Shown: positions 15,261 through 53,900 of the stretch, one piece after another | Layout of the letters: each line of letters opens with the position of its first letter | Numbering within the stretch: the first letter of the stretch is position 1 | The notes under the pieces: generated by a model | Told to the model about the DNA's origin: nothing | Database searches by the model: none | Seen by the model: only the letters and a program-made list of their open reading frames with translations | Source of the DNA: Branchiostoma floridae | Lineage: Eukaryota > Chordata > Leptocardii > Amphioxiformes > Branchiostomatidae | NCBI RefSeq assembly: GCF_000003815.2 | Contig: NC_049983.1 | Location: 13,347,855 to 13,411,854 of the forward strand | DNA length: 64,000 bases | Direction: 5' to 3' | Position numbers and translations under genes: made by a program

Positions 15261-16463
15261 CGCGGGTATTTTGGACCCGGCTGAGCCCTGGGTTGAATTT
15301 AAGTTGGACTTGAAATGAAACCGGGATCTCGTATGCTAATCGTGAACAAACCGATAGGTATCCTTGCGGCATCCGGCAGTCCACCGGGACCAATTGCAAC
15401 TGATGGCTTCGGGGCTAGGCCGGGGCTACATCCCTGACGGGTATCGGTGAAATTTGGACCGTAACCTAGAGCTGAAACCAAACATCACAGAATAGATGGT
15501 TGATACAGTATATTTGGCACCACCACAGCCGCCAGGGAGATTTTGCCACTGCAGGTGGAAATAAATTATGTACTATCGATACAGTAATATCCAAGTCTAA
15601 CATAACAAGAAGGTAACTTTGAGCGTGAAAGTAAAAAGTAAAATCTATGGAGAAACATACTACTGGGACAAAGGCTAAGGCAAAAGAAACTCCGTGATAG
15701 ATAAACATAGATACGCTCAACATGTTCGCCAGTCTTCAAAGGCAGATGGAGAAGAGAAAAGAAACGAAATAGAATTTCAAGTGGTTCGTGTTTATCTGAA
15801 GTAGCAAGACAATGGAAAGGGGTGTGCCTGTAAGTAAATCCTCCGTACAAGAACAGCTGTCCACGAGGATATGTTTAAAATGAATGGGAAAGTACCAACC
15901 GTTTGCGTGGAAATGTACACCTATCTTTGAAACAAGTTATCAAAGAGGAAGAGCTTTGAAAGGAAACGTGAACAAAATAGAATTCAATTGATGTTCATAG
16001 ATTATTGGGACTTGCATAAGGACTCTGGATATAATCTGTATATCTGTTATATTCTATCTGATCCTTGCCTGGCTCATGACCTCAACGAAAAGCGGCCTGC
16101 AGGCCGAATTGAGCTTCTTATGAATAAATAACGGTTTAGACATACAAATTATAAGATTAAAAAGCATGTGCAGCACACGAAGTCATTCAACAAAACTTAA
16201 GAGTAGATCGTCTCATGAACATATCACATTACACATACTAACAGTACTTGTAATATCCACTATGAAACCTGCATTGGAAAAGATCTTAAAAATTGGTTTG
16301 CCTATGCAAACAAGACGGTAAGTACCAGACCATGAAGATATTTTAAATGACTTTCATTGAAGATGATACCACATCACGATTAAAGTTACGTTTTTCAAAC
16401 AAGCAAAATATATCTCAAAACTCTGGGGAAACTAAAACCGCCTGGAATGGAAACTATGACCGT

Positions 16464-17065
16464 CTATGGCTAAGATCAGGGAATGGTGCACACGTCTTGA
16501 TGTACGCTATGGCTAAGATCAGGGAATGGTGCACACGTCTTGATGTACGCTGTGGCTAAGATCAGGGAATGGTGCACACGTCTTGATGTACGCTGTGGCT
16601 AAGATCAGGGAATGGTGCACACGTCTTGATGTACGCTGTGGCTAAGATCAGGGAATGGTGCACACGTCTTGATGTACGCTGTGGCTAAGATCAGGGAATG
16701 GTGCACACGTCTTGATGTACGCTGTGGCTAAGATCAGGGAATGGTGCACACGTCTTGATGTACGCTGTGGCTAAGATCAGGGAAAAGTGCACGTCTTGAT
16801 GTACGCTGTGGCTAAGATCAGGGAATGGTGCACACGTCTTGATGTACGCTGTGGCTAAGATCAGGGAATGGTGCACACGTCTTGATGTACGCTGTGGCTA
16901 AGATCAGGGAATGGTGCACACGTCTTGATGTACGCTGTGGCTAAGATCAGGGAAAAGTGCACGTCTTGATGTACGCTGTGGCTAAGATCAGGGAATGGTG
17001 CACACGTCTTGATGTACGCTGTGGCTAAGATCAGGGAATGGTGCACACGTCTTGATGTACGCTGT
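16464..17065 (+). repeat. 43-bp tandem repeat with a 170-bp higher-order period
   Basis: About 14 near-identical copies of a 43-bp unit (core GGCTAAGATCAGGGAATGG and CACACGTCTTGATGTACGCT). Two units are shortened to 41 bp by an identical change (GGGAAAAGTGCACG, at about 16780 and 16950), 170 bp apart (3 x 43 + 41), so a four-unit block was itself duplicated. Confidence 0.95.
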
Positions 17066-18240
17066 CACTGCCTGACGTACAGCTTCGTCCCGGGGGGCCT
17101 TCGCCTCTCTTTCACGAGGGGTGATGTTATCTGGGCCGGAGATACGCGGCGCGGGAGTCCGCCGTGTCTTGGGCAGGCCATTAGCTTCGCCCTCGTCGGA
17201 CGGTTAAATATTCATACAGCCTTTATCTATTTAGGTAAAAATGAGCGAGGAGTGCAGAAAAATAAGCGCCACTGTTTTGTTGTATTCGAGTTCATATAGT
17301 AAATATAGCAATATCGCAGTTGGGGTGAGAACAGTGTAACGGGTTTCCGTTGAATAAGATGGTTATACTTAAAACAGAGGTCAGCATTACGAAGCAAAAT
17401 GTAATTTACCAGCATCTCTCTAGTGTGATTCACGGAGATACTGTCAGGGTTAGTCAGTCAAGGGGCACTTTGGTGTCCCTATATAGTACATTTAACTACA
17501 GATATTAAGATTTACGAGCTAAAGAGAGCAATGCTCATGGTACAGGTAAAATATAGGCTTGTAGTTGTAAGCTGATGCTTAGACTATTTCGTCCGGTTGT
17601 ATTGGCTTTGAATACGACCATGACTAGGACCTTTCCGTTGTTTACATATGAACTGGTCATATATATAACTAAAACGAATGCACGCAGAGAAACTAGGAGT
17701 GCTGCCATGAACGCAGCGCCCGGTAAACATAAAAAATCTCAATCACAAATCAAACACTCCAACACAAAAACTCAACGACGGTCTCCTAATACTAGTGCTG
17801 TAGTAGAAACGCCCCGCTGCTGAGCATTCTATGGTATGATATATTCCACTGAGTTAGAAGCCTATTCTACCACATCAAATCACGTTACTAATAGTCCCGT
17901 CGACAAATGTGAAAAATGTACAACATACCTTACAGACAAGTTGTGGCCAGCCCTGTCCAATGACTATAGACAGATAGCTCGAACTTGGTACGTTCTCGAG
18001 TACTGCTGGGGCAGTGCACGGTCAAGAAACCGACTGAGATGCTGCCCGGTCTCTCAGGAACGAACCCAGTACTGAGCACGGACGACTGAGAGTGATCGAT
18101 AAGTTCGTGGGGAGGGATTGTCGTCTCGGATTCACGTCTAGATAAAGCGGAGATCCTCGCACATATTTCAGTCTCTGTCGGCCGCGGCCTACAATGGAGA
18201 ATACATGCCGAACCACTGCCACAATTTGTCAGAAAGGTGT
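17066..18240. other. No gene recognised
   Basis: 17066-17215 is GC-rich and CpG-bearing; the rest is AT-rich. An 82-codon Lys/Ser-rich plus frame (17575-17823) and a 120-codon minus frame (17930-18292) have no recognisable domain. Confidence 0.4.
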
Positions 18241-19162: not shown

Positions 19163-20307
19163 TTACCTCCATGAAATGTCATGGAGGTTATATTTTACCC
19201 CGCGTTTGTGTGTCTGTGTGTTTGTGTGTGTGTATTTACCTCCATGAAATGTCATGGAGGTTATATTTTACCCCGCGTTTGTGTGTCTGTGTGTTTGTGT
19301 GTGTGTGTGTGTGTGTGTAAACAAGATAACTCAAGAACGGCTGGGTGGATTGGTTTCATACTTGGTGTGTTGGTACTGTGTGACGAAAGCTGGAAATAAT
19401 TAGATTTTGGGCCCCCTAGCGACTCCCCTTGGTACTGCAGCGCAACTTCCGGTTTTGCTATCTCGGTGTTCTGAACATGCTATGGTCACGATTTTTAAGT
19501 GTTAGATAGCTCTTGTGCTCAGGAAGAAATGACATAAGTTTGGGCCCCCTAGCGTCTAGTTTGGGGATAGCAGGGGCATTTTTGTCAAAAACTTCTGACG
19601 AGGATAACTCAAGAAGGGAACAACAGATTTTCATGATTTTTGGTATGTAGGTACCTTAGACAATGTTGTACAAGATAAGATACTAATTATGCAAATCAGG
19701 AATACATTTGCATAATTAATGAGAATATTCTATCATAGCAGTTTTTTCAATGTATCTCTTGTCACTGACGTGATCTGGTCGTGACATTTGGGTGGTAGAT
19801 AGCTTTTAGCGTCATGAAAATGTGGGGCAAGTTTCAGTCCCCTGACATTTAATTGTGGAACTGCAGGGGCGTTTTTGTCAAGACACTCCAAAGCGGATAA
19901 CTGCAGAAAGGAACGGCGGATTGCCTGCATTTTAGGCATGCAGGTAGCTTAGGTAAAGATGTTCATAATGATATGCATGTTATGCAAATGAGGACTTAAT
20001 TTGCATAATTAATGAGGAAATTGTATAGTTCCATTGTTTTCAATAAAAATACACGTAACACATGTTAATTATGATAGGTGGAATATAAGCATATACCAAA
20101 TATGGTAATGAGGAACTTATTTGCATAATTTATGTAAAAATTCAAAACCGCTTTATGATCAATAATGGGAATTTTATAATTGTGAGATGCGTACGTTAGT
20201 CAATGATGAACAACACCATGCATGAATTATGTTAATGTGTTGGTCAATTGCCTGAAATTTACGAAAGCTCTAAATTTTCATGGAGGTATGAGGTCGCCGA
20301 ACTCTAG
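19163..20307 (+). mobile_element. 1.1-kb non-coding DNA element, copy 1
   Basis: Begins ACCTCCATGAAA (inside the palindrome CCTCCATGAAATGTCATGGAGG) and has TTTTCATGGAGGT at the far side, followed by CCGAACTCTAG. A second, inverted copy lies at 51637-52712. In this copy the first 70 bp is duplicated in tandem. The interior is AT-rich, with paired direct and inverted blocks and no transposase, so it is non-autonomous. Confidence 0.75.
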
Positions 20308-20639
20308 TTTGCATGTAAATTTTTCAAACTGCACGTAAAATTTTTGCCAATTTGCAATTTTGCACATCAAGCCATACCTTGTCTAGTTCTTCAGCCTTGA
20401 TCTTCAAAAGGTCAGCAAAGGTTACAGCATGTTCCTGTATGACAAGTAAAATGGTTCACATCAAGGTAAAAAATTAAGTTGAGCATTGAAACTTAAGGCT
20501 GGATTTTTCATTTCAATTCTTTTCTGTAAATATTTTTCTACATAAGATTCCCTGTTGAATTTTTTTTCTGAGTCATAATTGCATAGCTCTACGTTTATAA
20601 GTGTATCGGGATATGGGTTTCGGGCGAACTACATTTGCT

Positions 20640-26443: not shown

Positions 26444-29400
26444 ATGGAGGCAGATAAAGGTATGGATCTCTGAAATGAGTGGTTCAGTTCTAATAGAATG
26501 CGTGTTAATCTTCTTCTTATTTATCTATTTATTCATTGCACACTAATTTCAAGGAAACAAACGTATGTACAACGTGTGAGAAGGTACAAAAATGTCTGTA
26601 GCTAGTTTTTACGACAAATATATGTTAGACATAGGGCTGGGTATCAGTACAGCGTACCGGTACAAAACCCGTTTTTCTTATTGGACTGGTCCAGAAAAAC
26701 CGGACCTGAAAAAATTAGGTGGACCGGATGTTGGACTGATTAGAAAATTGATAGATTATTTCATCAGGCATTTACACGTTTTGGCGCTTGCAGGTGGAAG
26801 AAAATAACAAAAGAGTGAAGTAGAGTAGAGTTTATAGTAATTTCTACCAAGTTTTACAGCCAATCGTACAGGTGCAGTTAGCGTTGTAGGATTTTAAAAA
26901 GCCAGAAAAAATACTCCACCAAAAAATGGTTCAAAAATACTTCACCAAACAGTTTTTTTTTGTAGTGAAATGGACCATTAGTATGAGTCATACTGAATCA
27001 GGTCCAGGTTCAGGTCCGGACCTGGACCTGATCCTCTGGACCTGAACCGGACCTGGACCTGAATTTTCTGTACCGGTACCCAGCCCTAGTTAGACATGTT
27101 AATAGGATGGGTAAAAAAATCTGACTATCCGGTTGTTGGTCCAGAAACTGACCTTCACAGGTATGTAGGCGTAACTTCATCCCAGTACTCGTATTCAATA
27201 ACTCTATGCCGTCATGGAACATTGTATTGCCACTTTACAGATGTGACAAGCGAGGTCGTCTACCGGCAAATAGTACCTATGTCGGCAGAAGCTTTCTGGA
27301 ATGCCACTTTCAAGGACAACAATGCGATGATGGCAAACATGGACATCTTTGAAGACATACGGATTACGAACGGTAAAGGTGCTAATTCATGTGAGATAAA
27401 GCTCGTTCTATGAGAAACTTAATACATGGGCTTAAAATTCATTATCTAATTGAAGATAATTTCAGCACATGTACAATGGCTCAAGCAGTAGTGACATGTC
27501 CCTTTTCTATCAATGTCTAGAATCGCCAATTCAAGAGAAATATGGCAAAACAGTCATCTTATTATGATCATGAAATGTGACATGTTGCAGTCCATGGGTG
27601 TACATCTAAATGGGACTGCTCCGGTGACCATCGCAAGTAAGCATGGACGACACATTTATTGCAATTGACCAACATTTCAGTGTCGCCTGGTGGACTTGGC
27701 GAGGATGTAGGAACCTCTGTCTCGTACTACCTCGATCTGGGAGGAGAAGAGAAAACCAAGATGGCGAAGGTTATAACTGGGAAGGACGATAGCCAGAGGA
27801 CGTTTACGCTTGAGCACGTACCAAACTTTGTCGTCAAAAACTTCCAGGCAGTCAATAAGGTTATACCTTCTATTCTCTCTTTAGCATTGGCATTGTCGAT
27901 TAAGGCTGTAAATGACCTCTAGGAAGACCTCAACCGTAAGACTTACGTGATTTTTCAAACAAAGCAGGAAGAATTGTGCATGAACGTTATATTCAATTTG
28001 ATCTCTTGTGTCTCTTGTGTAATTTAAGAGTACGTACATTGAAAATGTGGCAACCGCCTGACTAATTGTTTTAATAACCTATTCACCATGTAGATCATTG
28101 AATTGGACCAAGACCAAGCATTATGGGAGCTCAAGATAACACTATCCTTCTTCAACGAGGAGATCAAGGAGAGGATGGTACCCCTCATGAGCGGAAGAGC
28201 GGTGCCTGTCATAATGGACGAAATCATGGATGTCGCAGCAAGAAAGAACGGAGGACAACATCAGATGGAGTTCGACATCAACTGCGGAACTGAAACGTTT
28301 TGGAAGATTCTGAGTAACATCCATGACGTCTCCTGGCTCCCAAATACCACCTGTGAGTCCACATTTATTGCCTGAACGACAAATCATTTTGTTGGGCTAT
28401 CCTGCTTGCTCTTAATGCCAGTCGAGTTGTGAGCGGACTGGGAGTTCGTGAAAAGAAACTTCTTTCAAAATGCAATTGCATAGGCAACTAAAAGAGAATT
28501 CATAATTGTGCATACGAGTCATATAGAAGTAAGCATTTTAAGCAATATAGATGTGATATGCAAGTAAAGCTTGATGTAAAGATTTCTGGAGTTACTATTA
28601 ATATTGCTTGGCGAAGGTATGGGGTCATCGAATTCTTGTTAATTAGAATGTTTTACAAATAATTGAAAATGACAACTCATATCACAGACCATTCTTGGAG
28701 GTCCGTGTTATTGATACTTAGAAATGACCTCTTGTCACTAATCATGTAGAGTATTTCTTCCCTTTGACAAATCTTCTTGGTCTTAGAGAGTCATTCAAAT
28801 GTACACCATCTTGTCTTTAGTGGTAAAAGTGGACGAAAAAAGCCGGAAGAGGACGATAGAAGTGCAGGGTAACAAGCAAGGTGAGGAAGAGCTGGTGTTA
28901 GTGGACCATGGAGATAACACCTTCATCTCGGCCATCCAAGATGCCAACGTGACTGGAGTACAGTACTTAAGGACAAAGGTTTGTGCGTCCACATCCAATG
29001 GTGGTGGTGATGAGGTCAACATTATATGTAATTGTTATTTGAAGCATTTCCCTTGCAGCTTTTATAGTAATTAAGACTTCCCGAATGTTTCAGATTGTGC
29101 TTGAAGCCGTCAACCCTTACGTTACCCGTCTGAAGTACCAAAGCACCTTCCTACCGGAAACAGGCCAAGGGTCAGTCGAACGTCTCATGGATGTCAGAGC
29201 TACGTTCCTGAAGGGGAACTACTGCATTCATGAACCACAAGCAATCACCAGGGCTCCTACGTTTGACGAAGTCTGGAACAGGTGATTTCATGTGTACAAA
29301 TGACGGTCTGCCGGGATTTTCTGCGTCCCTTTTTGACACTAACACTTAAGGTCTATGTTAAAAAACACTAACCACGTCATGCCTCCATGTTTCTGCCCGA

Positions 29401-32400
29401 CAGACGAGGAAAGCACACGGTGACAGTCCGCGGGATAGTGCCGGAGCCTGTGGGGGAGGTCTGGGAGGCGTTCAGTCCTTTTGGTCCGGTGGGTACACGC
29501 AACGGTTTTCTATTCTGATTTCGAAATTCAAGTTTCATCAGGTATATACCGTGATAATGTTAAGAGTGACTGACAGTAATATCATCTCATCGACTGTGAT
29601 TATAAACCATGTTGTGTCTGGAGGCCCTACAAATCCGTACAAAGATGTCGTGATAGCATTGTTTGGGACCTGTACTTGCAAAACAAGTAGCTGCAAATAA
29701 GTAACAGGAAAAAGGCGTATTGTATAACGTCAACATGTGAACCGTAGGAAAATGTACGACAGTATCAACTACGTTGTCTTAAAAATGGATTTCTTACCTC
29801 TATTGGACGTTAACTATCAGGAGAGCTTGCAGTTCTGGCCACAGATCAAATCCCTGGTTCTGGAGGAGCCTGGTAAGGACGAGGTGGGGTGTGTCCGGAC
29901 GGTTCGCTACGACAACACCTCCAGGAAGGAACGGCTAGAGGAGCGGGATGACATCAAACACGTCATGGTCAGATGTGCTTTTGTTTCATTGTCGTTTGTT
30001 TACTTCAATGCTGGATTTCAGCATAACTTTGTTGGGAAAATTCATCTGAAGTACGCCACTTCATGTATCATTTATCTATTCCTACATGATAGGTCTACTC
30101 CTTGTTACCGGGCACAATGCATCCAAACATCTTCAAGACATACAGCGAGGTTACTTTGGTGACCATGGAAGAAGGTAAGACATTGCACACTTGTAGGTTT
30201 GATTGCAGCATTTAATGAAAAGTCACACATGATTAATGAAAATAAAGCACTTTGGTGTTTTGTACTTGTTTGACGGAGGCAGTAGTGGTGAGGGGGTACA
30301 GCCAGAGGGTCAAACAAACTGACTTGTGTAAGAGGGAACTGCAACATCATAAGTCTCTATTGAGAGGCGAGTCATATATTGTGGGATGGGTTAAGATTGA
30401 TGTATTATGCACAATAGTTTAGGACAAAACAAGTTGACACATGGTAAACAGCTTAACAGTTGGTTATGAGCTGTGACAAATGGCATGTGACATATGGGGA
30501 AATGGCTATAATTGGTGGATCATGTACAAGAATCTAAGATAGAATATTACTCAGCACAGTTTCATATGTCCAGTCTACCAATGTCAGCATTAAGTGGGCA
30601 TTGTACTTACTCGGGTTTCTCCTTCAGTTCTGAGCTCTGACGGGCACTATGCAACTGAAGTGAAGTTTGAGTGCTTCCTGGATGGCAAGCCCAGGTATCC
30701 CCTCAGCATAAAAAGGAGTCTCGTCTCGGAAACAGCCTTTAACAGGGCGTCATCAAGAACCTGAAGGGCCACATGGAGTTAGAGGTTGGAAAGCTGAAGG
30801 TGACTCTACAGAGGGCATTCAATCTGAAGGATGTTGGCACAGAAGGTATTACATAGCATAGTTTCTGTTGCTTTAACATTGAGAAAGTTGAGAAAAAAAT
30901 CACGTTTTTATGATCGAAAATTTGTCGACTAACTTTAGATGCATCAGTACAAAATGTATCTATCAGCCATCTGATGCATTTTGGCAGCAATCGTTACAAT
31001 AAAAACTAATGTGCACAAATGCTGTGTTTCATTTGTGCTTTGGATATAGCTTAAACTCTTTAAGACCACCATAGGACAACCTCATACTTACTTGATGTTT
31101 ATGGCTCTTTCAGATGATCCCTGTCCTGACCCATATGTTGTCATACTGGTCAACGATGCAGCAAAACCTGAAGTGTCCAACGTGTGCACCGATATGCAGA
31201 CACCCATCTGGAATCAACAGTTTGTCTTCCCTCTCCACCACACCAGCCAGACCTTGTACTTCACCATCATGTAAACACACTTTCTTACATGCAAGTTACT
31301 CTGCCTTGCTATGAAACCTAAACTTTCCACAAAAGATGATTGTGTAAGGTACAGAATTATGTAGTTAATCTCTTAGTTTGTTATTGAAATGACCATAATT
31401 ATCATTAGGGACAAGAACTACGATGGGACTCCAGATACAGTGATGGGGACTGCAGAAGTGGACATATCTACCCTGCAGTCAGGAGAGGAGACACAGCTGG
31501 ACCTACCTGTAGATGAAGGGGGGACACTGAAGGTCACCATGCTGTTGGCCATGTATAACCAGCCACTGTCGCCACAAGGACAAGTCATGAATTTCAAGAA
31601 GATGTGGAACAACCTGTTGGGGGAGCTGCAAGCCATTGCTGCTGAGCTGGGGCAAGTTCTGCAAAACTTTGCTCATGGTGGTGAGTAGCCAAATGCAAAT
31701 TTAATTTCTCTCAGTACATTCTTATCTTATGCTATGTTTTTGTATCAACTCCACTTCGTGTACATTTTCAGTTTTTCTTTTCTTCCGTGGAACTGCAAAT
31801 GTCAGTACCCTCTGATCTTATGCTGTTTTCTATTAAGTCCGGGCCACTTTGTGAATGTTTCAAGTTTTTTCCTTTCTTCCATGGAACAGCAAATGTAATG
31901 ACATTCTAGGAAAAAATGTTGACCTGCACCCCTGGACTTTCTTCTTTAACAAAGGCAACACATACAAGATGGTCACCCACAGGAATCTGAAGTCAAATCC
32001 TGGCCTCAACCTCAAAAGCCTGCCTGGCTTTGCAGAGGGCCTTCCAGTTGGGCAGTTCCCTCACGCAGACAAGGTCGCAAGAGCTGTTGGACGACTTATG
32101 ACGTTTGTTTCACAGCAGGTGATTTGAGTTTGATTAGAAATATTCCCCTGTCAGACGCTTAAGTTTAGGTGCTCATGAAATGTGCTGATACAGGTAATGA
32201 ATAATAATGTATCAGCACACATAATGGCTCACATCAAAACTATTAAAATGTAGTTGTTTCATTGGCATATCTGTGCTCTATGTACGAATATACTGTTGAC
32301 ATTACAACTTACAAATAGTATTGGTATTATATAGCACCAGAACATCACATAGGAATAGCCTTTCTCTTTATGACATCTTTCCCACTTCTCAGAAAGCGTG

Positions 32401-35400
32401 ATTACGTTTGTTAAAAAACTTGTTTTTTCCCATTAGGCTGGGATCGTACTTCGCTGGAAGGCTGAGCTCCAGGAAGGTAACCAGTGGGGCCTGTACGAGT
32501 CGTTCTTTGGAAACATCCTGCCGACTCCCACAAAGATCATTGCAAGTTGGAAGGATGACACAGAGTTTATCCGGCAGTATATACAAGGTTAGTTAATTGT
32601 GTATAATGCTCCATAGCAGCCTTTCATGGGTTTAATAGTGCCTCCAATGCAATTGTTAGAGATAGCTTGCCTGTCATTGTACCACAATAATGCATTGGAT
32701 ATACAAGTCATGTGATTACAGTGCTATCCAGCAGCACATTATCATTGATTATGTGAAATTTCTTGGGCCTTTGCTGATAGCTGCAATGAAAAAATATATC
32801 ACTTACTTAAAGTGGCCTTTACTTCCTACATGTCATGTTTGCATATGAAGAGATTGTAATGTTAAATGTCCTCCTTACTTATATATGCCCCCTTCCCTGT
32901 TACAGGACTGAACCCAGTGATGCTGAGAGTGTGCCAGTCAGTTCAGGAGATTCCCTTTGCTATGCTGTCACTGAAGGGGCAGGGCAAGACCGTCATAGAA
33001 CTGATCAGTGAGAGACGACTCTTCATTGTGGACTACAACATGCTGAGAAGTAAGCTGCCACTTTTCAGTTATACAACAAATACAATGTATACATTGAAGT
33101 TGATAGACTATGACTTTGTGACAGGCTAACGTTTCAAGAAACGAAATACTGTGCTGTCTTCAAGTGCTTCATCTGTGCACCAGAATAAAGTTTCTTTACA
33201 TGCTGCCTCTGAACATTTGAACTGGCTGTCACTGTGTTTGATCAAATGAATCCATGTTTCTGATTAGGCCATGTTGATTTGATTATATGGATGACATCCG
33301 CGCTCGCACCAATTTTCGGCCGTTTCCAAAAAAAAAAAAAAGTTTTCGACCACACAATACATTGTGCAAAGCAGCTGTGAAATGAGCAGAAATATTCTGT
33401 AGATTGAAAAAAAAGTATCAGAAAACAGATAACTTATGCCATAGAATGCCAAAATAAGTCAAAGAATAAGATGTGAAAGGACAAAGAAAAAATCTATTGT
33501 TGGTAGGGGAGGTACCAGTACAGAAAATTCAGGTCCAGAGGATCATTTCCAGATCCAGACCTGAACCTGATTGTCTGTGGAAACTTGGTGGAAGGTAATT
33601 GGTCAATTTTTCTACAAAGGAATCTGTTTGGTGGATTATTGGACTCCCACTGGCATTTTAAAATCCCAACTCCATGTAATAAAGGCTAACTGTCTCTGTA
33701 CCTTTGACTGTAGAAACTCGGTACAATTGACTATAAACTCAAATTGACTTCGCTCTTGTTGTCTTCTTGGCCCCCGGTAAGATCCCAAATGCCTGTCGAC
33801 ATAGTGTGTCCATTTTGTAATTGGCGAAACCTGTTCCTCTGATTTTTTTTTCAATTCTGTTTTTTTCGGATTGGTCCTAGATGAAAAAAATGTTTTGCAC
33901 CCGTATGATGTACTGGTCCCTACACCTCACTGTTGGTATACCATATGTGTGTTTAGTCCTATGATCAAACTTCCTGGCCACTTTGATTTCATACTGAAGA
34001 CAACTTTTTTGGGGGGCCAAACTTTTTTTTTATTCGCTCGCTCGCATCAGTTTTGGAGTTCCCAGAGGATGTCATCCATATAATCAAATCAACATGGCCT
34101 TAATTACTTTGATTAATCTTATTTGCAGAGATCCCCCTACAAAAAGGGAAATACTTCTATGCGCCCACCGTCCTGATGTACAGGGAGATACTCGAGGATG
34201 GGAAGTCTCGCCTCAGCATCATGGGAATCCAGCTGGATACCAGGAAAGGTAGGAAGGACGATATACAGTTACTGTAGTTACAACATAATACTACACAGAA
34301 GTGATGCACTTTTCCCTCAAATATATTGATATACTTCTAATGTGACTGTCTTGTTCGTATTTCAAAACATACGTGTTCTTTTAGCGAGAAACCAGGTATA
34401 CACCCCAGAATATGGAAAGTCACACCCCAACAAGTACCTGTTTGCCAAGATGCACGTGACCTGTGCCGACGCCCAGTACCACAACTTCCTGTCCCACCTA
34501 CTGCTGACCCATCTCGCCATGGAGCCGATCGTGGTCGCTGCCAACCACTGCCTGAGTGCCGACCACCCCATCCTCTGCCTGCTCAAGCCACACTTCAAGG
34601 ACACCATCGCCATCAACTTCCTGGCCCGTCACACCCTGATATCACGCATACTTCCCGTGACTGATCCCGAGTTCTCCGTGGGAACGGGTGGGGGGCTCAT
34701 GATGTGTGTGCTGAGATGGAAACAATACAACTTCATGAAGGAAAGGTAAACAGAAGGGCAATGTTTTTCTGTGTCTCGTTTCTCCCACAGAACAGGTATT
34801 AATTTAATATGACTATTGTAGGGATGTATTCCTGGACTTTCCAGACAGTATATTGCATTATTATAGTTTTTCTAAACTGAATACCATGATACTTTGCTGA
34901 ATATGACACTGTAACCTGTGTTACTTGGAATTCATTCATTTGTTGGGTTTATTTATCAAATATAACGTTATGTATGTAAAAATCTTACCAGTTTTCCCGA
35001 GCAACTGAAGAAGCGCGGGTTTGATGAAGATCGCTCGGACGGCCTGGAGGATTACTACTACAGGGACGATGGGATGGAGCTGTGGAACATTCTGAAGAAG
35101 TACGTCACCTCTGCAGTGGAGGAGTCCTACAAGACTGATCAGGAGGTTGACGGTGACAAGGGTATGGAAGTCTACTCATGTACACTTATATATGAAAGCA
35201 AACAACATGTATCTCTAAGTAACACTTTTGTTTAATATCTCTATGCAGCAGATCAAGGTCAACTTATCATATTGCTGCATGTTAATTTGTTGAGTAAAGC
35301 AACTAAATGAGCATATTCAACAAGGTGGAAATGCTCTAGTTTTCTTTACCCCCTGAAATAACACGTCAAAACATCAAAATCAATTTGTATGACAACCACT

Positions 35401-37008
35401 TTTTTGTTCATCAGAGCTTCAGGCGTTTTCAAAGATGACATGCATGGATGGACAGGTGCATGGCTTCCCTTACTACATTGACTCAAAGGGTTTGCTTCAA
35501 GTAAGTATGTCAAAATGTTACAGTATTGTAGCTTCGTCATATCATATTCCATCTTTTTGTTGTGTAATCAATAAAAGACGTTGCATTGTCAGAAGTACAT
35601 GTATAGTATGATATGATCATTCTATGATACATTGTACTAATGTGCCTCTTAAACCAATGTTGAGTTTTGAACTGATGAGGGCAGGGATAAGTCAACACAA
35701 ATGGATAAAAAAATTTACCTTGGCTGTGAATAGTTATACTTAGGCAGTCTTCACCTTTAGTTTCCATGTTCTATATTCCCTTATTTTCTTTAGTAGTAGA
35801 CATTGTAAAGAGAAGAATTGTTACAAATTGTGCTCTCTCCCTCATACCTCAGGAAGTACTCACCAACATCATCTTCAACATGAGTGCACAGCATGCTGCT
35901 GTCAACTTTCCCCAGTGGGACTATGGTGGATATCTCCCCAACAGGTGCTAAACTTTCATTCCTGTCGTTAATACACTATTAAATCACTGCAGTAGCAACT
36001 CTTTTGTGATTATGTGGAGCAAAGCTTTTGTTGATGGAGCCGTGATGTTTTGATAAGAACCAAGATTTTTTTTCAAACACTAATTTCAGGCATTTTTAAC
36101 AATTAACTTCATGAAAAGATTGTAAGTCAAACCTTTCACCAAAAAAGTTCCTTCGTAGTCAACAAGCTCGAAACAGAGATTCCCAACTTACTTAAACTGG
36201 GATACATTCAGTCCTGGTAAGTTTGACCACTACAATATAGAGGTGATGCTTCTTTGATTCTCGCTTATCCGATCTGGTCTGCCAACATTACAGTTTTCGG
36301 AAAATACAAAAAAAGGAATGTTTGCGATACATGTACAGTATTTGGTTATGTGGCCAAGGAAATGTGTGTAGAATAGCTAGGTTTTGGGTAGATGAGTAAG
36401 CTCAGTTTTGATATTCACTGCTTAAAAAATTAGAACACATCCCTAATACAACATACTGGGTTGTGTTTTCATGTACTGTCATGCTCCAGGCCTGAAATGC
36501 TGAAGAAGCCCATGCCAGACACCAAGGGAGACATGACAGAAAAAGACCTGGTTGACGCTCTGCCTGGACCATCCCTACAACTCTGCAAATCCTGCTGAAG
36601 TATGCCTTGACCATGCCGTCACTGACCACTCTTACAAAGGTAATCAACTTGTGTATCAATGTTTAAAATTTGTATAATTGTGCTCCTTTTTTCCCATATG
36701 CCAGATTCAACCAACAGTTTCATCAGGTTGGTAAATCATTGAATTACCTTAGGAATGTGACAGGCAGATTCAAGTTTGCAACTTTCAAACAGAAATGGAT
36801 TTTGATACATTTGTATATTTGATTTGCACTTTAGCTGACATCAGAACAAACTGGTCACAAGTTTGGGAAGGCCCATGCAGAGCTGCAGGATGACCTCAAG
36901 AAGCAGTCTGAGAACATCAAGGAGCGCAACAAACGCCTGGCAGAAGAGGACAAGTTCACCTACTCGTACCTGGATCCTGAGAATGTTCCTATGAGTATTG
37001 ACATCTAG
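26444..37008 (+). CDS. Multidomain lipoxygenase: SRPBCC x3 - C2 - lipoxygenase (22 exons)
   Basis: Predicted to insert O2 into polyunsaturated fatty acids, giving hydroperoxides; probably cytosolic with Ca2+-driven membrane binding. Coding exons: 26444-26459, 27241-27372, 27681-27859, 28094-28352, 28821-28978, 29094-29281, 29404-29488, 29821-29967, 30093-30174, 30628-30845, 31114-31270, 31409-31680, 31910-32118, 32437-32587, 32906-33049, 34129-34248, 34385-34745, 34992-35161, 35415-35500, 35853-35944, 36490-36639, 36835-37008. Every junction is GT-AG and phase-compatible, giving about 1183 residues once two 1-base frameshifts (near 30741 and 36562-36573) are allowed for. Domains: SRPBCC at about 8-158, 164-300 and 313-465; C2 at about 471-600; lipoxygenase about 640-1183. 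The first exon has an acceptor at 26391, so a 5' UTR exon lies upstream; its frame is open before the ATG at 26444, so the start is not certain. There is no signal peptide. The frameshifts could be assembly errors or real lesions. The lipoxygenase identity is very secure; the fusion is secure by splice phase. Confidence 0.9.
26632..27088 (+). mobile_element. hAT-type MITE in lipoxygenase intron 1
   Basis: Ends are TAGGGCTGGGTA / TACCCAGCCCTA, and both flanks carry the identical 8-bp target duplication GTTAGACA (26624-26631 and 27089-27096). An 8-bp duplication and a TAGGG-type end are hallmarks of hAT elements. The interior has GGTCC/GGACC-rich near-palindromes and no transposase. Confidence 0.9.
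27241..28300 (+). CDS. SRPBCC-like domain 1 of the lipoxygenase gene (exons 2-4)
   Basis: Residues about 8-158. The segment opens with VVYRQIVPMSAEAFWNATF, an alpha-helix-after-strand start typical of SRPBCC folds. It continues through GTSVSYYLDLGGEEKTK, RTFTLEHVPN and LWELKITLSF, which alternate like the antiparallel strands of the Bet v1 helix-grip, and ends in a long helix (PVIMDEIMDVAARK). Members of this superfamily bind hydrophobic ligands in an internal cavity (established for the superfamily). The ligand here is unknown. This copy is the most diverged of the three, so its assignment rests partly on domain 3 next to it. The intron between exons 1 and 2 holds a 457-bp hAT MITE. Confidence 0.6.
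28094..29281 (+). CDS. SRPBCC-like domain 2 of the lipoxygenase gene (exons 4-6)
   Basis: Residues about 164-300. It starts at HQMEFDINCGTETFWKILSN, where FW sits at the helix position that matches VWEAF in domain 3 and FWNATF in domain 1. Strands follow as KRTIEVQG, EEELVLVDHG, TFISAIQD and YVTRLKYQSTFLPE. The same start motif (aromatic-Trp helix after a first strand) recurs in all three domains, which points to internal duplication. No catalytic residues are expected in this fold. The C-terminal stretch (CIHEPQAITRAPTFDEVWNR) is probably a linker before domain 3. Confidence 0.6.
29404..30740 (+). CDS. SRPBCC (polyketide cyclase/Bet v1-like) domain 3 of the lipoxygenase gene (exons 7-10)
   Basis: Residues about 313-465, the clearest of the three. 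KHTVTVRGIVPEPVGEVWEAF is followed by SPFGPESLQFWPQIKSLVLE, then VGCVRTVRYD, ERLEERDDIKH, a turn (SLLPGTMHPN), YSEVTLVTMEE and HYATEVKFECFLD. This is the standard order of the polyketide-cyclase-type SRPBCC family: VW helix, W-x-P-x-I-x-S, VG-x-VRT, ERLEE-x-DD, a Y-x-G turn and a T-x-V/E-x-x-F last strand. A 1-base frameshift at about 30741 falls between this domain and the C2 domain, inside a single exon (30628-30845). As assembled, the frame ends at a TGA 12 codons later. Confidence 0.8.
30743..31563 (+). CDS. C2 domain of the lipoxygenase gene (exons 10-12)
   Basis: Residues about 471-600. GKLKVTLQRAFNLKDVG is a canonical C2 first strand and loop 1. Next come DPCPDPYVVILVND, TDMQTPIWNQQFVFPL (the N-P-x-W-N-x-x-F-x-F hallmark region) and FTIMDKNYDGTPD (loop 3), then MGTAEVDISTL and GGTLKVTMLL. 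Acidic residues in loop 1 (D484, D489, D494) and loop 3 (D542, N544, D550) sit where type C2 domains bind Ca2+. This implies Ca2+-triggered membrane docking, which PLAT performs in animal 5-lipoxygenase. It replaces, rather than adds to, a PLAT domain: none is visible between it and the catalytic region. Confidence 0.85.
31910..37008 (+). CDS. Lipoxygenase catalytic domain (exons 13-22)
   Basis: Residues about 640-1183. Family landmarks in order: LNPVMLRVC (exon 15), RRLFIVDYNML, the KYLFAKMHVTCADAQYHNF lead-in, then SHLLLTHLAMEP with iron ligands H877 and H882 spaced five apart. ADHPILCLLKPH, DTIAINFLARHTLI and SAQHAAVNFPQWDYGGYLPN (ligands H1059 and N1063) follow, and the protein ends in Ile1183 as the fifth ligand. 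Spacing between ligands (177 between the second and third, 120 from Asn to the end) is almost that of human 5-lipoxygenase (178 and 119). A920 is at the Coffa stereocontrol site, predicting S products. A second 1-base frameshift lies at 36562-36573 in exon 21; exon 22 is back in the expected frame, so the lesion looks recent or artefactual. Confidence 0.95.
33267..34099 (+). mobile_element. PIF/Harbinger-like MITE in lipoxygenase intron 15, with nested fragment
   Basis: A perfect 34-bp terminal inverted repeat (GGCCATGTTGATTTGATTAT, continuing to 33300) is mirrored at 34066-34099. The flanks are TTA on both sides (33264-33266, 34100-34102), the target duplication typical of PIF/Harbinger. There is no transposase. 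Inside, 33510-33565 is the reverse complement of the right end of the hAT MITE at 26632-27088, so one element inserted into the other. Confidence 0.85.
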
Positions 37009-41900: not shown

Positions 41901-44900
41901 TAGGCAAGAACAGGGACAATTAGTTACATAAATTGTTCATCTTATTCAAGTTATTGTCACTACAATAAAGAGCAAAAAATAAAACATGTGAAATTTGTCA
42001 TTGATGGTCATATCAGACAATGCCAGTTGTAACTGATGCTGAATCAGATGAAGCCCTACCTTGGTACCCATCGTCACAAGCACACCTGCCCCCCTCCCCA
42101 CAGTGCCCATGGCCGCCACACAGGTTCTCATCACAAGCCTCGCCCACGTAGACATCATCAATGGCCCACTGTGGGGCCAGCTGGAGGTTAGAGGTCAACT
42201 GAGCCCAGCGGAATTGAGTCATACTGAAAAGGATGTAATCAGAATCATTTCACAAAAACATAAATGCACCTGTACATGTGAAAGAAAAGGCTGCCTTCCA
42301 AAAGTATTGGTATGAAAACATGTATGTATTCTTCAGCAAAGAACTGTTCTATTTCTTTGGGACAAAAGCAGCTATACAGTGTGACTGACCTTGATATGAC
42401 CTTGTCAGGAAGGCGGATGGTGACTCGTGTCCATGCCCCAAAGTCATCGGCAGAAAACTTGCTCTGTCCGTGGTAGTGATAGGGGATGCAGTCGATGGAG
42501 TTGTCATTGGCTGGGAGACACTCGCTGAGGACCGGCTCCCAGTGTCTGTACTGGGGATCTGTGGAGAACTCCAGCAGCACAGGGAGGCTGGAGGCACAGC
42601 TGTCTTCATCACTCATCCCACAGCCAACAACAATCTAGCAGGTTCAAGGAAAATGTCAACATCATCACCACTCCTACGTTAATGAAGGTTAGACATCCAG
42701 GTAAGCAATATTCAAATACAATTCAATCTCTACAACTGGATAAAAAACGGATATTGACTTCCGGACGTTTCGAGTGACATCCATCACTCTTCTTCAGCAA
42801 AAGCAGAATGAACTAGTCAGAACAATTCAATACCAGTACAGCTAACTAGAAAAACTGGTTTAACCACTAAATCGTTAGGATCATATGCAAAAGGTTACAC
42901 AAATGTAAATCATGTTAGACAGAAGTTGGTCCATCCAAAGGACCGTGTACAAAAAGGCACCAAGTCTGACGTCATCTACAGACTTAAGTGTGAAGGTCCA
43001 CAGTGCAACGACACCTACATTGGAGAAACCAGTCAACCACTGAAGGCAAGGTACAAACAACACTGCAGGGCTACAGCAAGTGGATACTCTTCTGCCATCT
43101 ACCACCACACTCAGCTACACCAAGGACATTCCTTCAGACTGGATACTACAGACATTCTTGACCGCGAACCACGGTGGTACGAACGGGGTGTCAAGGAGGC
43201 CATTTACGAGCGGATCTACAACCCCACCTTAAACCGGAAGGGAGGACTGCGCGTAGAACTTTCCAGTACATGGGACCCCGCCTTGCACCACAAAGGACAA
43301 TAGTTTTTTCCTATGGTATTGTCTGACCATAGGAACTTAATCCTAACATGATTTACATTTGTGTAACCTTTTGCATATGATCCTAACAATTTAGTGGTTA
43401 AACCAGTTTTTCTAGTTAGCTGTACTGGTATTGAATTGTTCTGACTAGTTCATTCTGCTTTTGCTGAAGAAGAGTGATGGATGTCATTCGAAACGTCCGG
43501 AAGTAAATATCCGTTTTTTATCCAGTTGTAGAGATTGAATTGTATTTGAACATCGCCACTCCTGTTTCATCACAACTCCTTCATGAAAAGAGTTAAAGGA
43601 GATATCAGCCCTTTGGTTATGACTGATAACAGTGCTTGCATCTTAGTCACGTGACTGCAAGATTTACAAAAATGTCAAAACACTCTACCCACAAAAATAA
43701 CAAGACATAGTGTCTAGCGATATTGCTGTTTAGATGGCAATATGAAATAAGGTTGACTACCTTAAACTGTAGCACATATCCCTCTGACACTATGAGAGGC
43801 ATCGTGGTGATGGTGTTGGATGTTCCATCTGACTGCTGATTGGTCCAAGTAATCAGCCCGCCAACATTTCCACACGTCTCATCTGAGACTGCTCCATTTG
43901 GCCAGAACTCCCATAATGCATCATTGGGATGGAATTCAAAAGTTTCCCAGATGCTGCTGGGATTGATGTCTGCTCCACCCACCATGATGTCATCAAGGGC
44001 CCACTCAGCCATAGGGTCATCTACATGTGTACATTTGAACAGAATGGGGCACAGTCAGCTATAAAATCATGACCTTCACACTCAGATAGCGACATCAGTG
44101 AGCCAAAGCCCTGATGGTTATCAAATGAACTTAACAGTTCCCAAAGCAGGGCTCAAAGTTTACTCCAAGGCCTGTGAAAGGGAGCAAAAGCTGTAATGGT
44201 CCTACTCCTACTCCTACTCACTCAATCAATCGTTGTGCAACAAGTCACTCAATCAATCGTTGTGCAACAAGTAGTTTCTGTCAAGGAATATTAGACCTGA
44301 AAAGCCTTAGAAAAAAATACTTAGAAAAAAAGGGATTCTAGTAATCAGATAGCCAAGGACATTTTTGTTTGATTTTGTCTAGTTCTAACAAAGACAGCAA
44401 TTTTTTTCAGATCTAAGAATGTACACAGTGTAAGTTCACCAGTCATCCTTACCTATGGACACATGCTGGTTCCTCCTGCCGACTGGCTGCCACCACCTGA
44501 GCCGGGTGCTGGCTGTCCTGGCTTCAGGCGGCAGAGTGATGTAGTCCTGCTGGGGGCTGGTGTAGTGTTCATGGTCAAGTTCATGTAACAGGATCCATGT
44601 TATTCCTGGACAACATCAAGAAATGGTGTTAGTAGTGATTACAATTTAGAGCTTTCAATTACACAAAGTTCAAAAGATTTGTACAGGACCATAGGTGGCT
44701 ACATGTTTCAGACAGTTTGAGAATCACAGATGCATTTTATTCAGAGAGGCAATAAGAGAAGAAACCACCATTATACATGTACATACCACCATCCAAAGAA
44801 TACTGTAAGAGCACACTTTCTTCCCTGGCTCTGGGTTTTCTGCACTCTGCTGTGTCATCTTCACTGCCAATTTGGGCATGATACTGAAGAAACCTGGAAG

Positions 44901-50900: not shown

Positions 50901-53900
50901 AGAAGATCAGCACCATGGACAGCATCAGCAACTATGGCAGATAACGGATCAGCACCATAGACAGCACTTGTTACTGTATCAGATAGTAAACTGCAATAGT
51001 TACTGTATCTGCTAGTAAAAGTAACTGATAACAGATCATCTACTTTCTGTATTCATTTTTCTGGGACTCTTAAAAACACTTCAACAATTTGAAATAGTAT
51101 TTGAGACCTTGTGTGAGGCGGAAGTGGCAGTGTGATCCGGTTCCACCCATGGTAGACATCAGATGTGAACACACTCCTGAGGTAGTACTTGTTACAGTCC
51201 ACATCCAGTGGCAGGCAGTCCCTCAGCACAATGTCCCAGCTCTTCCCCATGTCCAAGGAATACTCCAGTTCAACTCCTATAGAAAATGAGAGTGAACAAC
51301 ATTATCTTAACCCTCCCTCTGCTTTCTAACCCTTTAACTAATACAAATTTGGTGCAAAAATGCTACTTCAGCTGAGAAAAGGTCAAATTGTTATGATCCA
51401 AGACCACAGAAACCAGAGAGATTACATCTGATTGCTCCTTCTTAGACCTCCATACACTTGCTTATCACTGAAGACAGAATGGCTTGCAAAACATTCCTGA
51501 ACCTACCGTAGCAGTCTGCCTGTTCCTTACACCCCATGGCCAGGTCAAACTGGATGAATGTGAACTCATTCACCACCACATCTGATGACACTGCATACCT
51601 CATCTTGTCATTGCCTGAAAAAGAAACACAGCAACAGACTAGAGTTCGGCAACCTCATACCTCCATGAAAATTTAGAGCTTTTGTAAATTTCATGCAATT
51701 GACTAATACATTAACATAATTTATGCATGGTGTTGTTCATCATTGACTAACTTACACATGCCACATGTATAAAATTCCAATCATTAGTCAAAGTGGCTTT
51801 GCAATTTTTACATAAATTATGCAAATAAGTTCCTCATTACCATATTTGGTATCTGCTTAAATTCCATCTATCATAATTAATAAGTGTTACAATTATTGAA
51901 GTCCAGTTATTGCTAATAATGGTATTATACAATTTCCTCATTAATTATGCAAATAAGCTCCTCATTTGCATAACATGTATATCATTATGAACACCTTTGC
52001 CTAAGCTACCTGCATCCCTAAAATGATGCCAATCCGTCAATCCTTTCTGCAGTTATCCTCTTTGGAATGTCTTGACAAAAACGCCCCTGCAGTTCCGAAA
52101 TTACATGTTAGGGGGCTGAAATCTGCCCCACTTTGTCATGACACTGCAAGCTATCTACCACCCAAATGTCCAGACGATATCATGTCCGGGACAAGAGATA
52201 CATTGAAAAAACTGCTATGATAGAATATTCTCATTAATTATGCAAATGTTCTCCTAATTTGCATAATTTGCATCTTATCTTGTACAACATTGTCTAGGGT
52301 ACCTACATACCAAAAATCATGAAAATCCATTGTTCCCTTCTTGAGTTATCCTCTTCAGAAGTTTTTGACAAAAATGCCCCTGCTATCCCAAACCTAGTCG
52401 GTAGGGGGCCAAAAATTATGTCACTTATTCCTGGGCACAAGAGCTATCTAACACTCAAAAATCGTGACCATAGCGTGTTCAGAACACGAGATAGCAAAAC
52501 CGGAAGTTGCGCTGCAGTACCAAGGGAAGCCGCTTGGGGGCCCAAAATCTAATCACTTCCAGCTTTCATCACACCCCACCAACACACCAAGTATGAAACT
52601 AATCCATCCAACCGTTCTTGAGTTATCTTGTTGACAGACAGACAGACAGACACAAACACACACACACAAACGCTGGGTAAAATATAACCTCCATGACATT
52701 TCATGGAGGTAATAACAGATCAGCACCATGGACAACACTAGTAACAACAAACTGATAACAGATCAGCACCATGGACTGCACTAGTTACTGTATCAGATCA
52801 GATCAGATCAGTGCTAGTAACAATAACAGATAACAGATCAGCACCATGGACAGCACTTGAAACAGTAATAGATTACAGATCAGCACCAAGGACACCATAA
52901 GTAAGTATAACATAACAGATCTACAATTCTAGTAACAGTAAGACTAGCACTTTACAGATCAGCACCAAGGACAGCACTAATAGCTGTAACAGATCAGCAC
53001 CACGGATAGCTCTACAGTAACATGGCTCCTTACCTGAGAAGTGCAGAGCTTTGCCCTTTGACCCACAGACAGGCTCCATGATGCTGCCAGGGTACAGCAT
53101 CCAGTTGGTCTCTCCTTCTCCAGCAAAGTCTGACTGGATAGCAGGGACCCCATTCACATCTCCAGCTATCACAATCTGCAAGAAAAAATCATTCTTTTAA
53201 GCGCAAAACATTGAGTCCATTATAGATATAGCACACTTGATGGTATAGTACAAGAATGAAAACAAGCAGGCTTTTAGCCAGGTATGTGTATGGGTGTACA
53301 ATGTACACCCTGTTAAAAAATTGTACACCCTTACACTGGGGAGCACATCCTCTGACAAGCATGAAATTCTGATTGACCAGGGATGCTGCAGGTCACATGT
53401 GGCCTGTCTTACAGTAAATTTGCTTCATTCCCCCAAATTTGCACCTAAAAATGTGGGAAATGATGTTTCAGAGAGTTATAAATTTAAAAATTTTCTGAGT
53501 AAGGATGTCCCCAGACCCCCTACAATACTCGCGCCTGCAGTGCTCGCCTAACAGCAAGAAATTTGGACACCCTATGAAAAAATCCTAGCTAAAAGCCTGA
53601 AAACAAGTCATCATAAAGGGAAAATGCACATAGTTGTACTTGGCTTGTTTGATTGATTCAACATTTCTTAGTGCACAGCTGTTAAACAATTTCACTCTCA
53701 CCCAATGGAAGGCTAGTGCACTTAACTAAATACAGTACAGTGCATGCTGAACTGGACAACATGTGAAAGGCAAAGTAAACTGGCACAAAGTTGTAAAAAA
53801 GATTTATGGTAATTTATATTACAAGCCAGTTCAAAACTCAAATGTATCACATTTTCATGTAAATCCCTGATAAGCTTTTTGCAAATGTTCTGACATTCAG

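Follow-up and report, generated by a model that had tools for sequence, protein, structure and literature searches.

Animal lipoxygenases are usually described as one PLAT-lipoxygenase (LOX) family, to which the coral fusion with a catalase-like protein is the exception. Here we examine a gene on a 64,000-nucleotide stretch of the Branchiostoma floridae genome (assembly GCF_000003815.2, contig NC_049983.1, positions 13,347,855 to 13,411,854 of the forward strand), hereafter called the window and numbered from its first letter, in which three SRPBCC modules and a C2 domain precede the LOX domain. We consider it rather probable that this locus is a member of a nine-locus family encoding a C2-docked, five-module oxylipin synthase (SRPBCC1-SRPBCC2-SRPBCC3-C2-LOX) shared with cyanobacteria. 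B. floridae carries, at nine loci, a LOX branch different from the usual animal family and held in common with cyanobacteria.

Lipoxygenases in which SRPBCC replaces PLAT ahead of the LOX domain are already known from the red alga Pyropia haitanensis (PhLOX and PhLOX2) and from Shewanella violacea (SvLOX) (PMC11507377, PMC4319731), and the absence of such proteins elsewhere, which the preliminary description of the window had implied, is thereby contradicted. The window family resembles them in having SRPBCC in PLAT's place, a likeness of descriptions rather than of compared sequences. In PMC11507377, the N-terminal part of PhLOX comprises two beta barrels joined by helices to LOX, and the term “C2 domain” does not appear there. 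The same paper reports that PhLOX without its first SRPBCC barrel releases more volatile products, that removal of the entire SRPBCC part abolishes hydroperoxide-lyase activity and volatiles with a partial loss of peroxidation, that SRPBCC deletion lowers or delays peroxidation, and that the helices between SRPBCC and LOX are required for basic peroxidation. Additionally, PhLOX2 has SRPBCC and lacks hydroperoxide-lyase activity, while Asn575 of PhLOX, located before the first iron-ligand His, is linked to allene oxide synthase activity (PMC11507377).

Classical PLAT-lipoxygenases such as 5-LOX and 12/15-LOX share the iron ligands and a homologous catalytic domain with the window family, which differs from them in carrying C2 (PF00168) for PLAT, in its three SRPBCC modules, and in forming a separate clade. 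The coral catalase-like allene oxide synthase-lipoxygenase likewise combines a lipoxygenase with an upstream lipid-handling module; unlike it, the window protein gives no catalase-like match in its five scanned segments, and the coral LOX groups with human 5-LOX. In the titles and abstract openings of the open-licence literature, we found no published description of the five-module architecture in animals or cyanobacteria. The fusion is real and surprising and does not look animal-made; SRPBCC-lipoxygenases as a kind are already known, and the form shared with cyanobacteria is new.

Five modules and a broken frame in the window gene

The gene was rebuilt as 22 exons on the plus strand, from an ATG at 26444 to a TAG ending at 37008, in a splice model with GT-AG borders at all 21 introns; a spliced aligner run with the protein of that same model returned identical bounds, and the exon number and bounds given in the preliminary description are reproduced. 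Exons 1-3 (26444-26459, 27241-27372, 27681-27859) supply the start codon and the greater part of SRPBCC module 1, exons 4-6 (28094-28352, 28821-28978, 29094-29281) the end of that module and module 2, and exons 7-9 (29404-29488, 29821-29967, 30093-30174) most of module 3. Exon 10 (30628-30845) completes SRPBCC3 and opens C2, and exons 11-12 (31114-31270, 31409-31680) hold the C2 domain and a linker. The LOX domain follows in exons 13-16 (31910-32118, 32437-32587, 32906-33049, 34129-34248) and 17-19 (34385-34745, 34992-35161, 35415-35500), with the first two iron-ligand histidines placed in exon 17 by translation and ligand columns. By the same means, the third His and the Asn fall in the SAQHAAVN motif of exon 20 (35853-35944); exon 21 (36490-36639) precedes exon 22 (36835-37008), which encodes the C-terminus, ending in an Ile that by analogy would be the fifth iron ligand, and the TAG.

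Joined unedited, these exons do not give the single polypeptide that had been announced from splice phases: a TGA lies inside exon 10, in the stretch that separates SRPBCC3 from C2, where the frame is broken by one nucleotide near 30742, and translation, splice model and aligner place a second one-nucleotide break near 36575 in exon 21. The preliminary description mentions neither break. The window protein used below therefore has 1,183 residues with both breaks written as X, and across its 1,183 codons there is no other stop or break. Exon 10 is 218 nt long here versus 201 nt in seven of the eight paralog models described below and 204 nt in one, while exon 21 has 150 nt versus 151 nt in all eight. 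Exon 10 does carry both module ends, as previously noted, but the argument that this frees the fusion from any intron guess fails for the window copy because of the frame break, and exon 10 was rejected as proof of fusion. Taken by themselves, exons 1-9 require no read-through and match a Tolypothrix protein (see below) at 4e-40. No paralogous exon was found elsewhere in the window. This copy has diverged from the family, and an assembly error or a broken gene may lie behind its frame breaks.

Two of the modules are recognized directly by Pfam in the window protein, namely C2 (PF00168, 2e-15, 57.3 bits against a cut-off of 22) and lipoxygenase (PF00305, 1.5e-69, 235.7 bits against 23.6). SRPBCC3 matches PF10604 (Polyketide_cyc2) at 8e-5 with 23.4 bits, under the cut-off of 27.4, while for SRPBCC1 and SRPBCC2 no Pfam family matches even at E values as high as 10; the same limit brings no PLAT match in any of the five scanned segments. 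Polyketide_cyc2 matches SRPBCC3 in five of the nine B. floridae members (best 4e-7), and the first module of the Tolypothrix protein passes PF10604 with 37.9 bits against 27.4. NCBIfam gave matches far under their cut-offs in every case. Since modules 1 and 2 of B. floridae have nothing above any Pfam cut-off, family profiles were used instead. The SRPBCC1 profile matched cytokinin-specific binding protein (2.8e-6), lachrymatory-factor synthase (2.4e-4) and also kirola; the SRPBCC2 profile matched 3f08 (2.2e-7) and XoxI (2.3e-7), both of which we take to have the Bet v1/SRPBCC fold, and 7tmu (8e-4), a chain named SRPBCC family protein; and the SRPBCC3 profile matched the abscisic acid receptor PYR1 at 2e-6. 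Other folds came no lower than an E value of about 0.3. Judged by these profiles, SRPBCC1-3 of the family belong to the SRPBCC/Bet v1 fold, so that the module assignment proposed earlier stands at the level of family profiles, but not at that of the window copy's own Pfam matches.

The His, His, His and Asn iron ligands are kept in all nine B. floridae members, the window gene included. The C-terminal Ile is present in six, again including the window gene, and is replaced by Val in the C12 locus; in C19d and C19e it was not found, and in C19e the last exon itself was not found. Calcium-binding C2 domains carry five Asp across loops 1 and 3. The loop 3 Asp-Asp-Asp is present in six of the nine members, those without it being the window gene, C19d and C17, and the loop 1 column is poorly aligned.

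Paralogs and cyanobacterial relatives

The B. floridae genome (513 Mb, 431 contigs) was searched with PF00305 and the N-terminal part of the window protein, and eight further family loci were found, six on contig C19, one on C12 and one on C17, giving a nine-locus family. Spliced alignment recovered SRPBCC1-3, C2 and LOX in the same order in seven of these paralogs, and with the window locus all five modules are present at eight of nine loci; in C19d, SRPBCC1-2 were not found within the 14.5 kb examined. The SRPBCC3/C2 junction exon is open in all eight paralogs, and no intron lies at this junction in any model. One-nucleotide breaks occur in three paralog models, C19a (in a linker), C19b and C12 (both at exon starts), and the other five are break-free, although an earlier model of C19c had one break in a linker. 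Identity between the window protein and its paralogs is 40-43%, whereas the paralogs share 63-92% with one another, and 16 of the window gene's 21 introns are matched by a paralog intron of the same phase within two alignment columns, two of them inside C2. Five paralog pairs were compared for the ratio of nonsynonymous to synonymous substitution rates (dN/dS), which is 0.10-0.45 whichever module is taken, although dS rises above 1 for parts of two of these pairs; hence the N-terminal half is under selection as protein, and on these ratios purifying selection acts on all five modules in the paralogs.

Other genes of the same genome share parts of this architecture. A stand-alone SRPBCC1-SRPBCC2 gene, L047 (G000:C4:28243001-28250000), stops soon after the second module; 100 of 291 residues are identical to the Tolypothrix protein (score 401, against at most 76 in 20 shuffles), and three intron positions coincide with those of the fused genes, one of them to within a residue and the other two exactly. 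L047 is related both to the fused family and to a separate SRPBCC1-SRPBCC2 open reading frame (ORF) of the cyanobacterium G194. Classical lipoxygenases also occur beside the nine-locus family. L048 (G000:C11) and L049 (G000:C12) are classical animal-type LOX-like genes whose models lack several iron-ligand residues, with TTQRAAH, for example, where the family has SAQHAAVN, and they are possibly pseudo-enzymes. L050 (G000:C14, a partial model) and similar LOX places form a further set with iron-ligand motifs.

Cyanobacterial relatives came to light when 84,980 species of bacteria and archaea were scanned by two peptide patterns, a scan that sees only genes with either pattern. With animal-only LOX the scan found nothing, and the cyanobacterial genes came after human, coral and L050 LOX had been added. 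It yielded 350 LOX relatives, and among the 79 loci kept only L051 to L054, all cyanobacterial, exceed 34% identity to the window LOX; G194, G406, G418, G457 and G613 came from a later genome search. Five modules in one ORF occur in three cyanobacterial genomes. In Tolypothrix sp. FACHB-123 (L053), a 214 kb contig bears a 1,144-residue ORF with all five modules, which scores above the Pfam cut-offs of PF10604 (in two stretches), PF00168 and PF00305. Window protein residues 1-1183 align to its residues 13-1144 with 34% identity and 612 bits, and window SRPBCC1-2 alone match it at 5e-16, the best of 50 shuffles reaching 0.03. Its first module is 21% identical to that of the window gene and 29-32% to those of four compared paralogs. 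The full ORFs of G418 and G406 are 71% identical to it. These three share with the window gene the same modules in the same order, an end-to-end alignment and a LOX clade, while they differ from it in having no introns and, for L053 and G418, in an adjoining aldo/keto reductase gene.

Simpler forms are found in other cyanobacteria. G194 is split, its SRPBCC1-SRPBCC2 ORF lying separately some 420 nt upstream of SRPBCC3-C2-LOX; L052 is SRPBCC3-C2-LOX; L051 is SRPBCC3-LOX without a Pfam C2 match; neither L145 (G613) nor L054, which the contig start truncates, has C2 in alignment or ORF; and G457 matches from residue 345 onward, its gene start being unclear. L051-L053 keep the His, His, His and Asn ligands. 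At E 1e-60, matches occur in 2 of 386 genomes sampled across the phylum and 8 of 388 in one order, the two samples overlapping. All eight LOX records on plasmids are below 33% identity. Among other bacteria, matches occur in 10 of 394 genomes of the order of G670 and 53 of 195 of the phylum of G671, and here, as in seven individually chosen genomes, the matches listed cover the LOX part only. In the phylum of G671, L155 and L160 are 695-residue lipoxygenases whose N-terminal region looks PLAT-like by eye.

Gene context was compared across nine cyanobacterial loci, several of them cut by contig ends. The aldo/keto reductase lies downstream in three (L053, G194, G418), a patatin-like phospholipase downstream in two (L052, G457) and a fatty acid desaturase upstream in one (L052), and G406 neighbours an ORF that resembles a short-chain dehydrogenase by eye. 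These neighbours fit a sequence of fatty acid release, oxygenation and then reduction of a carbonyl product.

Phylogeny, rival readings and a proposed mechanism

In a tree of 44 LOX domains, including 21 of the 75 other kept loci, the nine B. floridae and nine cyanobacterial LOX rows form one clade (100/100) on a long branch, with human 5-LOX, coral LOX and three other B. floridae LOX genes outside it. In blastp comparisons, identity of the window LOX is 42-45% with seven of the cyanobacterial members and 36% with the other two, whereas human 5-LOX reaches 31% and coral LOX 30%. Module identity and order, iron ligands and shared ancestry are what the sequences themselves show, together with the purifying selection noted above. 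The SRPBCC1-2 tree showed long branches meeting and was not used for direction. Relatives were searched in bacteria, archaea and B. floridae, the only eukaryotic genome covered, and within this range the most likely account is that the five-module architecture was shared between kingdoms by horizontal transfer in one direction or the other.

Several observations weigh against a five-module synthase common to both groups, or against a simple history for it. L050, a partial model on a long branch, has a LOX domain 35% identical to that of the window by blastp and 38% in an alignment, and its joining of the animal-cyanobacterial clade is not rejected in the approximately unbiased (AU) test (p-AU 0.20), so that B. 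floridae may hold further relatives that lack SRPBCC and C2 modules; some 15 further LOX places lie in the genome beyond the modelled genes. Met replaces the first iron His in L054, and L051 and L052 terminate in Thr, not Ile. Typical calcium ligands are incomplete in the window gene, L052 and L053, which have Asn at the second C2 loop 3 position, and SRPBCC1-2 of the window copy have diverged strongly, on a branch of 2.68 where no paralog exceeds 0.51. By ungapped counting from the His positions, Asn575 of PhLOX seems to be Val in the window LOX, so that the same products are not to be assumed; Gln777, after the third His, would by such counting be Gln in the window LOX as well. To these is added the sister relation of the two groups, taken up below.

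Two accounts of how the modules came together can be set aside. An SRPBCC protein ending at the exon 10 TGA, with a C2-lipoxygenase gene starting after it, is what the frame as assembled would give; because the junction exon is open in eight of eight paralogs and the modules form a single ORF in three cyanobacterial genomes, the fusion is real in the family, the two-gene reading was rejected, and we hold it to be highly improbable. The earlier claim that a single chain joins three SRPBCC modules in tandem to C2 and an entire lipoxygenase holds for the family. Equally remote is a classical animal lipoxygenase that gained SRPBCC and C2 inside the animal lineage, as the preliminary description had implied. 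The status of human 5-LOX as best solved-structure match to the window LOX would suit it, as would L050, given its identity and unsure place in the tree, but joining the family LOX with classical animal LOX is rejected by the AU test (p-AU 4e-70, and 2e-56 without L050), the window LOX is closer to the core cyanobacterial members than to the coral and human enzymes, and bacteria have the same five modules in the same order. A different concern is that the window copy is a decaying pseudogene and that only paralogs supply the working enzyme, which we think possible but unlikely. Its two frame breaks, its long SRPBCC1-2 branch, the Asn at a typical C2 calcium-ligand position and the lack of a second close copy of the locus among the best candidates in the assembly would all agree with decay; on the other hand, the rest of the 1,183 codons and the 21 GT-AG introns are intact, the four iron ligands and the C-terminal Ile are retained, and single breaks in three of eight paralog models mean that assembly or model error fits as well.

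The direction of transfer is harder to read. Cyanobacteria might have taken up an old five-module lipoxygenase of eukaryotes or of other bacteria, or both groups might have received it from a source outside the sample; we think this possible but unlikely, an ancient eukaryotic family that passed into cyanobacteria included. C2 is mainly a eukaryotic domain, the distribution in cyanobacteria is patchy, as the genome counts above indicate, and in the tree the animal rows (83/54) and the cyanobacterial rows (94/78) stand as sisters, the former not nested in the latter. Conversely, the AU test does not reject (p-AU 0.24) a tree in which the animal group stands beside the core cyanobacterial rows while L054 and L145 fall outside, and cyanobacteria hold simpler states, from SRPBCC3-LOX (L051, L054, G613) through SRPBCC3-C2-LOX (L052) and the split G194 to the full fusion. 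These stepwise forms hint at a cyanobacterial source, against which the patchiness speaks; since similar variants exist in B. floridae (L047, C19d), the simpler states leave the direction unsettled. As for function, the SRPBCC modules might stand in for PLAT simply by stabilizing the shape of the lipoxygenase or by contacting partner proteins, without ligand binding or catalysis, which we rate as less likely than not. Three tandem modules exceed the needs of channelling, and PhLOX depends on its inter-domain helices for basic peroxidation and peroxidizes less or later when SRPBCC is deleted. Yet PhLOX without the whole SRPBCC part keeps some peroxidation and loses hydroperoxide-lyase activity, and the profile matches of the family include ligand-binding or catalytic proteins (PYR/PYL, cytokinin-binding protein, lachrymatory-factor synthase). 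By analogy, these published deletions lend support to the proposed role of SRPBCC as hydroperoxide binder or converter.

For the five-module synthase shared with cyanobacteria, we propose, as most likely, a horizontal transfer long ago, after which the animal genes gained introns and were duplicated. The C2 module would dock the enzyme on the membrane, the LOX iron site would oxygenate a polyunsaturated fatty acid, and the SRPBCC cavities, on the analogy of PhLOX, may bind substrate or hydroperoxide and steer it toward cleavage or rearrangement. A bolder version, which we offer tentatively and with more doubt than belief, is that an intact synthase passed from a cyanobacterium to the ancestor of a chordate lineage, gained about 20 introns and reached nine loci, with SRPBCC performing the second step (hydroperoxide cleavage or cyclisation), such that one polypeptide would constitute a membrane-docked oxylipin pathway of bacterial type. 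Should the SRPBCC modules indeed act on the hydroperoxide, the family would amount to a way of making volatile or cyclic oxylipins on one chain, and the split and fused genes, cyanobacterial as well as animal, are a ready series for testing the contribution of each module.

Neighbouring features in the window

Exons of a Reelin-like gene adjoin the lipoxygenase gene on the opposite (minus) strand, at 41066-61786, with Reelin_subrepeat-B matches of up to 3e-28 and EGF-like repeats. An ORF at 42812-43303 has a weak GIY-YIG match (0.0027, under the cut-off) and lies between and within two inverted arms of 223 nt (42705-42927 and 43334-43556) that are 96% alike; together they look like the remnant of a mobile element. 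The window also holds a tandem array at 16405-17132, with a period of about 43 nt and 14 overlapping register copies, and a dispersed repeat pair in inverted orientation (19163-20311 and 51635-52717) that is about 90% alike over several hundred bases.

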